Shown here: piece after piece, positions 30,144 to 34,940 of the stretch | Position numbering within the stretch: position 1 is the stretch's first letter | Layout: each line of letters starts with the position of its first letter | From: an uncultured Ruminococcus sp. | Lineage (GTDB): Bacteria > Bacillota > Clostridia > Oscillospirales > Acutalibacteraceae | Assembly (NCBI GenBank): GCA_902766885.1 | Contig: CACXFS010000011.1 | Coordinates: 1-36,178 of the forward strand | Length of the DNA stretch: 36,178 bases | Reading direction: 5' to 3' | Position numbers and translations under genes: made by a program | The notes under the pieces: model-generated | The model's database searches: none | Told to the model about the DNA's origin: nothing | What the model saw: only the letters and a program-made list of their open reading frames with translations

Positions 30144-32294
30144 ATGGATTATATAGCTCATTTACGAAGCGAAACTGATAAAAAAGAACAGCCGTTGTAT
30201 GAACATATAAAAAATGTTGCTGAGTTGTCTAAAAAATTTTCCGAGTGCTTAATTCTGTCCGATTATGCTGAAATTATTGGAATGTTGCATGACATCGGAA
30301 AATACAGCAATCGTTTTCAACAGAGAATTAACGGAAATGACAAAATAAAAGTAGACCATTCAACGTGCGGGGCACAAGAAGCTTTTAAAATGAAACTTCT
30401 TATGGCAGCATTTTGCATTGCAGGACACCACGGTGGAATCCCTAATATTGGCGTTAGAACTGATAGTGAAAATGATCCGACTCTGACAGGCAGGCTAAAA
30501 AGAAACACAGAAGATTACTCAGCTTGGATAAATGAAGTTGATCGGAGTAAATTCAAACCGATTGCCGAGCCTTTTACTAAAAACAGAATACCTTACACTT
30601 TCATTTTACGTTTTTTATTCTCGTGCCTTGTTGATGCTGATTATCTTGACACTGAGAATTTTATGTCAAACGGTGCTGTTTTAAGAGATAGTGGTGAAGA
30701 TCTGACTTATCTTTTGAACTTACTGAATAAACATATTGAAAAATGGCAGAACCCAAGCGGAAAACTTAATATTCTTAGAACGCAGATGCTCAACGAATGT
30801 ATAGATGTCGGTAAAAATTGTAACGAAAAACTTTTTACTCTTACTGTACCGACGGGTGGAGGTAAAACAATTTCTTCAATGGCATTTGCACTTAATTATG
30901 CAGTAAAACACAGCAAAAAGAGAATTATTTATGTTATACCTTACACAAGCATTATTGAACAGAATGCTGAGGTGTTCAGAAAAATTTTTGGCATGAATAA
31001 TGTACTTGAAAATCATTCTAATGTTGATTTTGATAGTTTAGATAATGAAACCAAAATACAGATGATGTTAGCAGCTGAAAATTGGAATTCTCCTATTGTT
31101 GTTACAACGGCAGTTCAGTTCTTTGAATCAATGTTTTCAAATAAACCATCTAAATGCAGAAAAATTCACAATATTGCTGACAGTGTTGTAATATTTGACG
31201 AGGCTCAGATGTTACCGCTTGATTACCTTTTACCTTGTGCGACCGCAATAAGACAGCTTGCAGAAAACTACAATTCTGCTGTTGTGTTGTGCACAGCAAC
31301 ACAGCCAAATTTTCAGTCAATACTAAATCTTACTGAAAAAAACAACAAATTACAATTAACGGAAATTTGTAAATCCGCTGAAAAGATGGCGGATGATTTC
31401 AGACGTGTTAATTTTAAATATGAAGGCAAGCTTGAAGATGATGAAATAGCATTGGAATTAAAACAATGCAAGCAAGTCCTATGTATAGTAAATAAAAAGG
31501 CTCACGCTCAAAAAATCTATTCAATGCTTGGTAAGTCAGATGAGAATTTTCATTTATCAACATATATGTATCCCGCTCATCGTCAACAGGTCCTTGATGA
31601 GATAAGAAAAAGACTTGATGAAAACAAACCTTGCAGGGTCGTTTCAACAAGTCTTGTTGAGGCTGGAGTTGATATAGATTTTCCGACGGTTTACAGAGCA
31701 ATTTCGGGTATTGATTCAATTTTACAGGCGGGAGGAAGGTGCAACAGAGAAAACAAAAGGAATTCTGCAGAAAGTGTAGTACATATTTTCAATACTGATG
31801 AGGTTTTGTCCTATCAGCAGACAAATACTGATGCGGCAATGGCGGTTATCAAAAAGTACGGTGATAAAATTTATTTGCCCGAAGCAATTAAAATGTATTT
31901 TGACGACCTGTACTATTACCGTGACATTGATAAAACGCATAAAGTGTTTGATAAAAAAGACATTATACATTGTCTTACAAATCTGGAATTTGAAACTGTT
32001 TCACAAAGATTCAAGATGATAGAGAACGACACCAAAGCATTATATATTTGCACAGATGAGAATAAAGAAGAAATTAATCAATTAAGGAATGGCAATTACA
32101 CTAAAGAGCTTTTCAGAAGTCTGCAGAAGTATGTAGTTAATCTTTATGAGAAAGATTTTAATAAGCTTAACGAAGTATGTGCTATTGAATATGTAGACAA
32201 TATCTTTTATATTCTGGCTGACAATAAATATTACAGCAGTAAATCAGGGATTACTTTTCCTGATGATAATACAGTAAAAGGTATATTTATATAA
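30144..32294 (+). CDS. cas3: Cas3 nuclease-helicase, type I-C
   Basis: This 716-residue fused HD nuclease and superfamily-2 helicase is recruited by Cascade to nick and degrade target DNA. HD domain: His21, the His49-Asp50 pair in LHDIGK, and GHHGG at 94-98. Helicase: Walker A VPTGGGKT near 236, Walker B FDEAQ near 351 (a DEAQ version of the DEAD/H box), motif III CTATQPNF, and C-terminal-lobe motifs STSLVEAGVDIDF and QAGGRCNRE. All residues needed for activity seem present, and the length suits a compact I-C Cas3. AGGAG lies 8 nt before the ATG. It has its own promoter and is separated from cas5c by a 223-nt gap that holds a small RNA gene. Confidence 0.95.
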   Translation: MDYIAHLRSETDKKEQPLYEHIKNVAELSKKFSECLILSDYAEIIGMLHDIGKYSNRFQQRINGNDKIKVDHSTCGAQEAFKMKLLMAAFCIAGHHGGIPNIGVRTDSENDPTLTGRLKRNTEDYSAWINEVDRSKFKPIAEPFTKNRIPYTFILRFLFSCLVDADYLDTENFMSNGAVLRDSGEDLTYLLNLLNKHIEKWQNPSGKLNILRTQMLNECIDVGKNCNEKLFTLTVPTGGGKTISSMAFALNYAVKHSKKRIIYVIPYTSIIEQNAEVFRKIFGMNNVLENHSNVDFDSLDNETKIQMMLAAENWNSPIVVTTAVQFFESMFSNKPSKCRKIHNIADSVVIFDEAQMLPLDYLLPCATAIRQLAENYNSAVVLCTATQPNFQSILNLTEKNNKLQLTEICKSAEKMADDFRRVNFKYEGKLEDDEIALELKQCKQVLCIVNKKAHAQKIYSMLGKSDENFHLSTYMYPAHRQQVLDEIRKRLDENKPCRVVSTSLVEAGVDIDFPTVYRAISGIDSILQAGGRCNRENKRNSAESVVHIFNTDEVLSYQQTNTDAAMAVIKKYGDKIYLPEAIKMYFDDLYYYRDIDKTHKVFDKKDIIHCLTNLEFETVSQRFKMIENDTKALYICTDENKEEINQLRNGNYTKELFRSLQKYVVNLYEKDFNKLNEVCAIEYVDNIFYILADNKYYSSKSGITFPDDNTVKGIFI

Positions 32295-32322
32295 AAAGAA
32301 AGCAGGGCTGAAATCGCCCTGC
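32292..32322 (-). terminator. intrinsic terminator of the CRISPR-like small RNA
   Basis: Read on the minus strand, GCAGGGC (32322-32316) pairs with GCCCTGC (32308-32302) around a 7-nt loop and is followed by TTTCTTTTTAT. The T tract is strong only on the minus strand, so the terminator belongs to the leftward RNA and not to cas3. The cas3 stop codon is at 32292-32294. Confidence 0.88.
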
Positions 32323-32374
32323 CGTCTTTGCAAATATGAAATTAATAGTATTTCAATCCACTGTTTTCACAGAC
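32293..32374 (-). ncRNA. CRISPR-resembling guide RNA (CreR/CreA-like), predicted cas autoregulator
   Basis: A complete minus-strand transcription unit of about 80 nt lies between cas3 and cas5c. Its extended -10 promoter places the start at G32374, the first base of a degenerate type I-C repeat: GT, hairpin CTGT-GAAA-ACAG, then TGGATTGAAAT. That last segment equals the 11-nt 5' handle that Cas5c leaves on I-C crRNAs. The spacer-like segment runs from 32349 (ACTATTAATTTCATATTTGC) to the base of the terminator hairpin, which may also stand in for the second repeat. The first 18 nt match a PAM-flanked site beside the cas5c promoter with one mismatch. Guide RNAs of this kind are known from type I systems, where they direct the effector to repress cas genes or a toxin. 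No toxin frame is present, which favours cas autoregulation. Expression is unproven. Confidence 0.8.
32350..32374 (-). CRISPR. solitary degenerate type I-C CRISPR repeat
   Basis: Read on the minus strand it is GTCTGTGAAAACAG joined to TGGATTGAAAT, 25 nt. Ordinary I-C repeats are about 32 nt with pattern GTC-stem-loop-stem-GTGGATTGAAAT. The first three bases and the 3' handle are kept, while the stem is shortened to 4 bp with a GAAA loop. It is a single copy and not part of an array in this window. Confidence 0.8.
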
Positions 32375-32380
32375 AAATAT

Positions 32381-32409
32381 ATTATATCATAACTAAAAAT
32401 AAAAATCAA
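32381..32409 (-). promoter_or_regulatory. extended -10 promoter of the small RNA
   Basis: On the minus strand TTGATT (32409-32404), a 17-nt spacer and TATAAT (32386-32381), with TGA just before the -10 giving TGnTATAAT. The seventh base after the -10 is G32374, the start of the repeat-like segment. It points away from cas5c. Confidence 0.78.
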
Positions 32410-32412
32410 ATT

Positions 32413-32450
32413 ACAGATAAACGAAAATAAAATATTAAATTAATAGTGAA
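32413..32450 (-). promoter_or_regulatory. predicted Cascade target site of the small RNA
   Basis: On the minus strand the PAM TTC (32450-32448) is followed from 32447 by ACTATTAATTTAATATTT. The small-RNA spacer reads ACTATTAATTTCATATTT: 11 matched seed bases, one mismatch at position 12, then six matches; beyond position 18 the pairing fails. The PAM side faces the cas5c -35 box 9 nt away and the distal side of a 35-nt protospacer ends 3 nt from the small RNA's own -35. Bound Cascade would therefore sit between the two divergent promoters. Confidence 0.75.
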
Positions 32451-32459
32451 AAAATAGTA

Positions 32460-32487
32460 TTGACAAACGAATATGATGTGCTATAAT
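32460..32487 (+). promoter_or_regulatory. promoter of cas5c-cas8c
   Basis: Consensus TTGACA (32460-32465), a 16-nt spacer and TATAAT (32482-32487). The leader is only about 20-25 nt, with AAAGGAG at 32504-32510. This is the strongest promoter of the CRISPR region, and it stands immediately beside the predicted Cascade target. Confidence 0.88.
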
Positions 32488-32517
32488 TTAACTATAATAA
32501 ATGAAAGGAGTGATATA

Positions 32518-33165
32518 ATGAGCATTAAAGTTGAAGTATGGGGCGACTATGCCTGCTTTTCAAGGCCAGAACTTAAGATTGAACGTTTCACGTACGATTG
32601 CATAACTCCGTCTGCCGCAAGAGGCATACTTGATGCAGTATTCTGGCATCCGGGATTAGTGTGGGTTATTGATAAAATCTACATACTAAGCCCGATTGAG
32701 TTTACAAACATAAGGCGAAATGAAGTAAAGTCAAAGTTGCTTTCTTCCAAAGCAAAAACTGCAATGAGCGGAAAGAATGTTGACCTTTTCATTGACACAA
32801 GCTCGGATATTCAGCAAAGAGCAGCAACCGTACTTAAGAATGTTCATTACGTTATTGAAGCACACTTTGATATGACCGACAAGGCAAATCAAAGTGACAA
32901 TACGGGAAAATTTCAGGAAATGATGAAACGTCGCTTGGATAAGGGACAGTGCTATCATCAGCCGTATCTGGGATGCAGAGAATTCCCTGCAAAATTCCGA
33001 CGATGGGAATTTGACACTGTGCCAACTGTGGATATTTCTTCAGACCTCGGACTTATGCTTTATGATATGGACTATTCCGACAAAAATAATATTACACCTA
33101 TGTATTTCAGAGCAAAAATACAAAACGGTGTACTTGACCTTAGAGATTGCGAGGTGCTTAGATAA
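32518..33165 (+). CDS. cas5c: Cas5c, CRISPR RNA-processing subunit of type I-C Cascade
   Basis: This is a 215-residue protein. Cas5c (Cas5d) cuts the pre-crRNA at the base of the repeat hairpin and stays on the 5' handle; in type I-C it replaces Cas6. Family features are the N-terminal MSIKVEVWGDYACFSRPELK, the segment TPSAARGILDAVFWHPG, and the RR-rich mid-part. ATG 32518 is chosen because AAAGGAG lies 7 nt upstream; an in-frame ATG at 32473 is inside the promoter. The stop overlaps the cas8c start (TAATG). It is presumably the enzyme that would also process the small RNA at 32374. Confidence 0.95.
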   Translation: MSIKVEVWGDYACFSRPELKIERFTYDCITPSAARGILDAVFWHPGLVWVIDKIYILSPIEFTNIRRNEVKSKLLSSKAKTAMSGKNVDLFIDTSSDIQQRAATVLKNVHYVIEAHFDMTDKANQSDNTGKFQEMMKRRLDKGQCYHQPYLGCREFPAKFRRWEFDTVPTVDISSDLGLMLYDMDYSDKNNITPMYFRAKIQNGVLDLRDCEVLR

Positions 33166-34940
33166 TGGTTTTACAATCCCTTGTGAATCTTTACGAGGTT
33201 CTCTCAGCTAAAGATAAGGTAGATAAGTTGGGCTGGGCAAAATCAAAAGCATCATACGGTCTGATTATTGACGAAAACGGTGTATTAACAAACGTCATTT
33301 CACTAAAAACTACCGATAAAAGCGGAAAAAAGGAGATAGCGTCACAAATCAGCCTTCCAATGCCGGTTAAAAGAGCGGTAAATATATCGGCAAATTTTCT
33401 GTATGATACAGCGTCTTATCTTTTCGGAAATGACCGAAAGGGTAAGCCTGAACGAAATAAGCTGTGCTTTGAGGAGTCAAAGCGGCTTCATCAAAAGCTG
33501 CTTGCAGACGATGATTCCACTGCGGCAAAAGCAATATTGCTGTATTATGAAAATATTGATATTGACAACATTGAAAGCTATCTTGTTGATATTGGCTGTA
33601 ACGAAAATGTCATAACCGATATTTTTAAAAATAGTGCAAATCTTGTATTTATGCCGCTCGGAAAACTTGCAACCGATTACGCTGACATTTGCAACTGCTG
33701 GAATAAGCATTACAGCAAAAGCGAATCTGAAACGGAAATCTGCCTTGTTACAGGTAAAAAGCTACCTGTGTCAAGACTTCATCCTGTAATTAAAGGAGTA
33801 AGAGGCGGACAGTCAATGGGAACCTCTCTTGTATCCTTTAATGCACCTGCATTTGAGTCTTTCGACAAATCACAAGGAAATAACTCACCTGTCAGCGAAT
33901 ATGCCGCTTTTGCCTACACAACAGCACTTAATTATCTGCTGTCAGAAAGTGAATATGTAAACTATTTCGGTGATACGACAGTAGTCTGTTGGACTGAAGA
34001 TGATAACGAAGGCTGTCAGGATATTTTTGCTGACTTCTTCGGAAACAGTGACGAACTAAAGCAAAAAGATTTGTGGAATGTTATCAAAAAACTGTCAATG
34101 GGGCAGAGCGTTGAGTGGAACTCAATACCGATTAATCCCGAAGTTAAATTTTATATTCTCGGTTTATCGCCTAATGCGGCACGACTCTCGGTAAGATTCT
34201 TTCTTGTAAACTCTTTCGGAAATTTTATGAAAAATGTTGTGAAACACGAAGAAAATATGCGTATTGACATTCCGAAGTTTTTACAGAGTACACATTTTCC
34301 TGCGTGGAAAGTTTTAAGAGAAACGGTAAATCAGAACTCAAAAAATAAAAGCGCAAAACCACAGCTTGCAGGAAACTATATCTACTCGATATTAACCGGT
34401 TACAAATATCCTGCAACACTCTATGACAACATAATGATAAGGATAAAAGCTGAAAGAGATGTCAACGCAGAACGAGAGGCAATAAGAGCAGCTGTTATCA
34501 AAGCATTTTTAAACAGAAACTATCCCGAATATAAGGAGGTATTAACTGTGTCAATAAATAATGATACCAATAATCAGGCTTATAATCTCGGCAGACTTTT
34601 CTCGATTCTTGAGGAAATTCAGTCGGTAGCAAACCCAACTATCAATTCAACTATAAAGGACAGGTATTTTTCGTCAGCAAGTTCAACACCGGCGGCAATA
34701 TTCCCGTTTCTTTTAGATCTTGCTCAAAAGCATATTAAAAAGATAAGAACAGATAATCCCGGATTTTGCATAGCAAAGCAAAAGGAAATAACCGATATTC
34801 TTTCAAAATTTGAAGAAAGCTTTCCAGCAAGAATGACTATGCAGGAAAAGGGAGCTTTCCAAATAGGCTATTATCATCAGGTACAGAAAAGATATACAAA
34901 AAACCTGCTAAGAAAAGTCAATAGGCAAATTACAAGTTGA
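33165..34940 (+). CDS. cas8c: Cas8c (Csd1), large subunit of type I-C Cascade
   Basis: This 591-residue protein has the usual Csd1 length, so it is complete. Cas8c recognises the PAM and helps unwind target DNA. Family features: the N-terminal LVNLYEVLSAKDKVDKLGWA, the central segment CLVTGKKLPVSRLHPVIKGV (the typical Csd1 CxxTG...H-P-I block), and AYTTALNYLL. The start shares a base with the cas5c stop. The last 130 codons also encode the small subunit from an internal start at 34548. In other type I-C loci cas7 follows directly; here an IS110 element begins within about 80 nt. Confidence 0.95.
   Translation: MVLQSLVNLYEVLSAKDKVDKLGWAKSKASYGLIIDENGVLTNVISLKTTDKSGKKEIASQISLPMPVKRAVNISANFLYDTASYLFGNDRKGKPERNKLCFEESKRLHQKLLADDDSTAAKAILLYYENIDIDNIESYLVDIGCNENVITDIFKNSANLVFMPLGKLATDYADICNCWNKHYSKSESETEICLVTGKKLPVSRLHPVIKGVRGGQSMGTSLVSFNAPAFESFDKSQGNNSPVSEYAAFAYTTALNYLLSESEYVNYFGDTTVVCWTEDDNEGCQDIFADFFGNSDELKQKDLWNVIKKLSMGQSVEWNSIPINPEVKFYILGLSPNAARLSVRFFLVNSFGNFMKNVVKHEENMRIDIPKFLQSTHFPAWKVLRETVNQNSKNKSAKPQLAGNYIYSILTGYKYPATLYDNIMIRIKAERDVNAEREAIRAAVIKAFLNRNYPEYKEVLTVSINNDTNNQAYNLGRLFSILEEIQSVANPTINSTIKDRYFSSASSTPAAIFPFLLDLAQKHIKKIRTDNPGFCIAKQKEITDILSKFEESFPARMTMQEKGAFQIGYYHQVQKRYTKNLLRKVNRQITS
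34548..34940 (+). CDS. cas11c: Cas11c small subunit from an internal start within cas8c
   Basis: A textbook ribosome site AAGGAGG (34533-34539) is followed after 8 nt by GTG at 34548, exactly in frame with cas8c (codon 462). The product would be 130 residues, starting with the SINNDTNNQAYNLGRLFSIL segment. Independent translation of the cas8c 3' part to give the Cas11 small subunit is established for type I-C systems, and the length suits it. Cas11 lines the belly of Cascade and stabilises the R-loop. Confidence 0.8.
   Translation: MSINNDTNNQAYNLGRLFSILEEIQSVANPTINSTIKDRYFSSASSTPAAIFPFLLDLAQKHIKKIRTDNPGFCIAKQKEITDILSKFEESFPARMTMQEKGAFQIGYYHQVQKRYTKNLLRKVNRQITS

Follow-up and report, generated by a model that had tools for sequence, protein, structure and literature searches.

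The window analysed here, a stretch of 36,178 nucleotides from an uncultured Ruminococcus sp. (assembly GCA_902766885.1, genome G000; contig CACXFS010000011.1, positions 1 to 36,178), carries genes of a type I-C clustered regularly interspaced short palindromic repeats (CRISPR) system. Its cas3 gene (30144..32294, plus strand) is separated from cas5c (32518..33165, plus strand) by a gap of approximately 220 bp, which holds on its minus strand, in this order, a promoter, a one-repeat element of type I-C, a short guide, and an intrinsic terminator, and thus the parts of a putative small RNA gene. The promoter consists of a TTGATT -35 box (32404..32409, minus strand) and, at a spacing of 17 nt, a TATAAT -10 box preceded by TG (32381..32386, minus strand), with G32374 of the minus strand at start distance. 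The single degenerate repeat GTCTGTGAAAACAGTGGATTGAAAT has a length of 25 nt (32350..32374, minus strand) and ends 3' in the handle TGGATTGAAAT (32350-32360, minus strand). The guide begins at 32349, and its targeting part is the 18-nt sequence ACTATTAATTTCATATTT (32332..32349, minus strand). The terminator (32292..32323, minus strand), whose stem spans 32323-32301 and is followed by the T-rich tail TTTCTTTTT, is the sole one in the region 32200-32600 (mean of shuffled sequences 0.2, standard deviation 0.4). In this region four promoter-like sites were counted on both strands, so that the promoter-like site of the small RNA gene taken alone is within chance (shuffle mean 2.8, standard deviation 1.8). 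The predicted fold of the 80-nt RNA was better than that of 200 out of 200 shuffles (z -4.4), which is mostly due to the terminator, and the repeat hairpin has three pairs in the minimum-energy fold and none in the centroid. No Rfam family was detected in 32100-32700 at E values up to 1, and no open reading frame (ORF) of at least 80 amino acids lies inside the gap (RNA toxins were not searched for).

The true CRISPR array of this genome is located on contig C13, where 26 copies of the repeat GTCACCCTCCACTCGGAGGGTGTGGATTGAAAT extend to the contig edge. This repeat and the gap element end in the same handle; GTC and the last 12 bases of the array repeat are kept in the gap element, and the stem between them is shorter. 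In the assembly, GTGGATTGAAAT occurs 27 times, namely 25 times in the C13 array, once in the gap element, and once on contig C20, a putative prophage that is treated below. A passage in PMC7684278 gives U1 to C11 as the handle of the CRISPR RNA (crRNA) in type I-C Cascade, in agreement with the 11-nt UGGAUUGAAAU of the gap element. The positions that the preliminary description had assigned to promoter, repeat, guide, and terminator were found to be correct on re-examination, and its proposed comparison with the true array turned out in favor of a shared handle. That the element is itself an ordinary CRISPR array was rejected, as the window contains one handle only and the true array is that on C13.

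The guide of the gap element has a target upstream of the cas5c promoter. The target ACTATTAATTTAATATTT (32430..32447, minus strand) is matched at 17 of 18 positions, with a mismatch at position 12, and is directly preceded by TTC (32448..32450, minus strand), which is named as the I-C protospacer adjacent motif (PAM) in an excerpt of PMC8406640. The cas5c promoter, TTGACA-16-TATAAT (32460..32487, plus strand), agrees with the consensus boxes at 12/12 positions and reads into cas5c; the distance from the PAM to its -35 box is 9 bp. For all comparisons of guides with targets, 15 guide positions were scored (1-5, 7-11, and 13-17), and positions 6, 12, and 18-30 were not used. The runner-up TTC sites for the guide in the 36-kb window reach 10 of these 15 positions.

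Within the genus, 11 of 100 genomes, that of the window among them, have a Cas5c match (E values up to 1e-20), and a pattern search matched six out of 161 genomes. In five of these (G000, G067, G080, G457, and G040) an element with the order promoter, repeat, guide, and terminator occupies the cas3-cas5c gap, while the match in G068 and a second match in G080 are array repeats. The five loci have five different guides, each of which fits its own TTC-flanked target near the cas5c promoter at 15/15 scored positions; G080 and G067, for example, share the anatomy of the G000 locus and carry other guides, each fitting the region upstream of their own cas5c beside TTC. In G457, whose Cas5c is 95.8% identical to that of the window and whose terminator is kept nearly letter for letter, the guide differs from the G000 guide at the scored positions 2, 5, and 8, and the identical three changes are present in the G457 target. 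No other single line of evidence is as strong as these mirrored changes. Across 300 genomes of the family, the pattern of the window guide had two matches, the genome of the window itself and an ordinary array spacer in G193. As a separate observation, the motif CAAA directly behind the matching part of the guide (32327-32330, minus strand) is invariant in four aligned genus loci; their guides differ, yet CAAA is constant, and it is absent from the target.

One-repeat loci were also surveyed beyond the genus. A scan of genome contigs with a pattern that requires TATAAT and GTC...GTGGATTGAAAY returned at least 119 stretches; it does not amount to a census, and all survey counts refer to the matches listed. 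Two rows at contig ends (L131 and L132) were dropped and 120 were kept, 49 of them with one handle nearby, 3 with two, and 68 with three or more. Within 1 kb, the best match reached at least 13 of the 15 scored positions beside TTC in 33/49 one-handle, 1/3 two-handle, and 0/68 rows with three or more handles; beside other triplets this was the case in 4/49 one-handle rows (three TTT, one GGT) and 3/68 rows with three or more. A set of 37 cas-linked loci was formed from G000, G080, and G067 and from those 34 of the 52 one- or two-handle rows that have a tblastn match to Cas3, Cas5c, or Cas8c of the window (G457 and G040 were added later and stand outside this set). In 31 of the 37 loci the own guide passed the TTC target test in the 400 bp upstream, as opposed to 0 of 1322 comparisons with guides from other loci, from which guide pairs with at least 13/17 bases in common had been excluded.

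Cascade leaves every sixth base unpaired. Over the 31 passing loci, matching was 100% at positions 1-5, 48% at 6, 94-100% at 7-11, 45% at 12, 90-100% at 13-16, 71% at 17, and 16-35% at 18-30 (base rate 24-32%), where the high values at scored positions are selected by the threshold and the dips at 6 and 12 and the fall from 18 onward are independent of the scoring. Such a profile, with dips at 6 and 12 and an end near 17, is as would be expected for binding by Cascade without cutting. Of the 31 loci, 21 have a promoter directed at the leftward gene that the target footprint overlaps; among shifted controls the figure is 30 of 310. Matches to Cas5c or Cas8c exist for 25 of these loci (22 by tblastn and three as Cas5d by Pfam: L118, L149, and L153), and the remaining six have a Cas3 match only (L088, L090, L091, L126, L161, and L198; subtype not settled). 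The labels of the passing loci include Brevibacillus gelatini, Paenibacillus alvei, Trichococcus alkaliphilus, and Thermoclostridium caenicola, as well as metagenome-assembled genomes called Thermoguttaceae and Gammaproteobacteria.

Based on these comparisons, the gap element is very probably a CreR-type autorepressor of the type I-C system. We infer a chain of transcription, processing, loading, binding, and repression by the gap RNA, in which the small RNA gene would be transcribed leftward, Cas5c would process the one-repeat RNA as a crRNA, and the processed RNA would be loaded into type I-C Cascade and guide it to the target beside TTC, a short way upstream of the cas5c -35 box. Bound Cascade would then lower the transcription of cas5c-cas8c and the genes after them, and repression would be relieved when array crRNAs or anti-CRISPRs occupy Cascade. 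Because the match ends near position 17, binding would occur without cutting by Cas3: I-C self-killing in Xanthomonas requires at least 27 matching bases beside TTC according to the text excerpted from PMC8406640, and a 17-base match should thus bind and not cut. The reading in the preliminary description, a guide RNA of CreA/CreR type belonging to a type I-C locus, is supported, with CreR (cas gene control) favored over CreA (an antitoxin) because the target adjoins the cas5c promoter. The comparison with related loci that it suggested also turned out in its favor, as five of the six pattern-matched genus genomes keep the order of promoter, repeat, guide, and terminator in the cas3-cas5c gap. 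That description had mentioned neither the target at the cas5c promoter nor the copy on C20.

A number of observations weigh against an autorepressor. Of the 37 cas-linked loci, six do not pass the TTC test: L106 lies at a contig end, L136 reaches 12 and L190 reaches 10 scored positions, and the best site in L168, L193, and L199 is flanked by TTT. The element and cas5c are separated by other genes in L149 and L153, and Cas5c also occurs in G034, in G068, and at six more distant loci (L043-L048) next to a short gap that, judged by eye, lacks the element. The overlap of footprint and promoter is absent in G000, G080, and G067, where the footprint lies 8-9 bp from the -35 box. Furthermore, Cas7 was not found in this assembly (92.6% complete), and both Cas1 homologs of the genome (G000:C77:21334-22041 and G000:C19:9469-10116) fit type II models best, and the genome may thus hold other CRISPR systems. 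Downstream of cas8c (33165..34940, plus strand), an IS110-type transposase gene at the contig end (35020..36159, minus strand) occupies the place where cas7 follows cas8c in G080; it may represent an interruption of the I-C operon or a mere mark of the assembly break. Since Cas7 was not found, Cas1 is type II-like, and IS110 comes after cas8c, the effector may be broken or incomplete in this strain, or its genes may lie in an assembly gap.

Among the other explanations of the gap element, a degenerate leftover of an array, or a decoy that mimics a repeat and ties up Cascade with no DNA targeting, is quite improbable. The single degenerate repeat and its weak predicted hairpin would fit, and solitary phage repeats inhibit I-F and I-C systems according to a passage in PMC10651486, but neither the contrast between own guides (31/37 loci) and foreign ones (0/1322) nor the mirrored changes between G000 and G457 would be expected of such a remnant or decoy. 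Slightly less credible still is a CreA-type antitoxin, the guide of which represses a toxin gene and thereby makes the CRISPR system addictive: this fits the anatomy taken alone, and part of PMC12737573 indicates that partial promoter complementarity is used there too, but here the target sits upstream of a 12/12 promoter that faces cas5c and not a toxin promoter, and the gap is devoid of ORFs of the size given above (with RNA toxins outside that search). The least believable explanation is that the element is no Cascade guide and instead acts, as antisense RNA or as a terminator, on the cas3 mRNA at its 3' end. The reading direction toward cas3 and the end beside the cas3 stop codon would suit this, but it would not account for the handle, for the TTC next to the target, for the dips at 6 and 12, or for the copy in a prophage, which has no cas3 nearby on the same contig.

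This copy is located on contig C20 (35,684 bases), which carries portal, terminase, tape-measure, major head, endolysin, and primase-helicase genes. The first 87 bases of C20 equal the last 87 of C77 and include a genome-wide repeat and the 3' end of the transfer-messenger RNA (tmRNA), for which the evidence at the overlap consists of partial Rfam matches under the gathering score; ARAGORN reported no tmRNA gene on L082 or L204. Because of the overlap and the partial matches, C20 is read as a prophage in the tmRNA gene of this genome. Its element (about 438-300, minus strand) is a solitary I-C-type repeat with its own promoter, inside the prophage, and comprises TTGACT-17-TATAAT, GTCAGGTAAGGCACTGCGCTTTACCTGTGGATTGAAAT, a guide starting with ACTATTAATTTTATATTTGCAAA, and a hairpin with a run of T that resembles a terminator (RNA fold z -4.2). 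It matches the window copy at 97% over 35 bases (E value 6.8e-10), its guide fits the host cas5c target at 15/15 scored positions, and its promoter and hairpin differ from those of the host copy, the hairpin being stronger. Beyond position 18 the C20 and host guides have GCAAA in common, which does not match the promoter; this points to descent from a creR gene and not to fresh capture of promoter sequence. The best fit of an array spacer to C20 is 26/34 beside TTC, where triplet shuffles reach 25. As an unrelated feature, a type-P5 twister ribozyme is encoded in the same prophage (L203:707-761, plus strand; 65 bits, gathering score 37.6).

The prophage plausibly keeps the host cas genes low through its copy of the host guide, although this is a single case. 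A possible, if rather doubtful, alternative is that the copy is a plain Racr, that is, a repeat mimic titrating Cascade, with a guide inherited by chance. The prophage location, own promoter, and stronger hairpin are compatible with it, for two other prophage elements in I-C hosts the retrieved I-C region of the host contains no TTC target, and no second case like C20 was encountered in the searches made. The exact handle-plus-guide pattern and the patterns from two other host guides each had 0 matches in viral contigs, the gap element had no match in phage records and two partial matches in plasmid records (E value 0.9), and no relatives of a small protein near the C20 element were confirmed in viral contigs. 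On the other side, the copy retains 15/15 of the host target though promoter and hairpin differ, and titration needs no such match. On balance it appears somewhat probable that I-C systems of several phyla, as judged by label, carry an autorepressor RNA that has one repeat and follows a fixed 17-nt targeting rule, and that a temperate phage took over the copy of its host. With its different promoter and stronger hairpin, this copy would serve the phage as an anti-CRISPR RNA by which host Cascade shuts the cas5c operon.

A similar pattern matched 30 viral contigs, some of which are arrays or likely chance. When the guides of these 30 and of 15 untargeted one- or two-handle rows were compared with 40 targets, none reached 13/15 (best 11). 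Some of these guides reach 13-14 beside TTC elsewhere in the loci; of the four such places inspected (L120, L122, L109, and L187), three are within an ORF and one within an array, and none is near a Cas3, Cas5c, or Cas8c match. Nine viral contigs (L053, L054, L056, L059, L060, L063, L071, L073, and L080) combine a single I-C-type repeat and a short guide with a promoter-like box and a terminator-like hairpin, and are candidate RNA anti-CRISPRs. L059 recurs in Velocimicrobium porci (L086) and L054 in Cuneatibacter caecimuris (L172), prophage hosts with cas8c in whose fetched I-C stretches no TTC target was found.

Among the 18 of 52 one- or two-handle rows excluded from the cas-linked set, six have a TTC target of at least 13 (L089, L092, L108, L138, L160, and L194). 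L108, L138 (Blautia schinkii), and L160 (Faecalicatena faecalis) are similar one-repeat elements, with no cas3, cas5c, or cas8c match in the fetched stretch, and their TTC target lies inside the upstream promoter region of the element itself, facing away. The genomes of L138 and L160 have cas8c elsewhere. These three elements are possibly CreTA-like.

If the autorepressor reading is right, RNA-guided self-repression would also be found in the common and minimal I-C system, and the rule from the 31 loci (TTC; 1-5, 7-11, and 13-17 paired; then a stop) would describe how Cascade can occupy the genome of its own cell and leave it uncut. The copy in the prophage further raises the question of whether a phage can disarm CRISPR by supplying the off-switch of the host itself. 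The primary CreR paper is said to be that of Liu et al. from 2023, and Shmakov et al. reportedly predicted in the same year that regulatory mini-arrays aimed at cas promoters are widespread, phages included; these mini-arrays resemble the elements described here in their standalone repeats, their guides to cas promoters, and their predicted presence in phages. None of the titles among the best-ranked open-licence PMC matches listed concerns a CreR of type I-C. The CreA RNA of CreTA shares with the gap element a degenerate repeat, a short guide, and a PAM-flanked promoter target, but the target of the gap element faces cas5c and that of CreA a toxin gene. CreR is reported from I-B, I-E, and V-A (PMC13131331) and from "Type I and Type V-A" (PMC12737573). 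As described there, CreR resembles the gap element as a crRNA-like gene with the host handle beside cas genes, with a partial PAM-flanked match to a cas promoter region and no protein toxin seen (in the gap, among ORFs of at least 80 amino acids); the gap element differs in belonging to type I-C, in having one repeat, in lying between cas3 and cas5c, and in that repression is predicted. Viral single repeats and mini-arrays are mentioned in a passage of PMC11656645, and an excerpt of PMC10651486 describes Racr RNA anti-CRISPRs, one of them of type I-C. Like the latter, the C20 copy is a prophage-borne, solitary I-C-type repeat under a promoter of its own; in contrast to the Racr described in that excerpt, which needs no DNA target, its guide matches the cas5c promoter region of the host.
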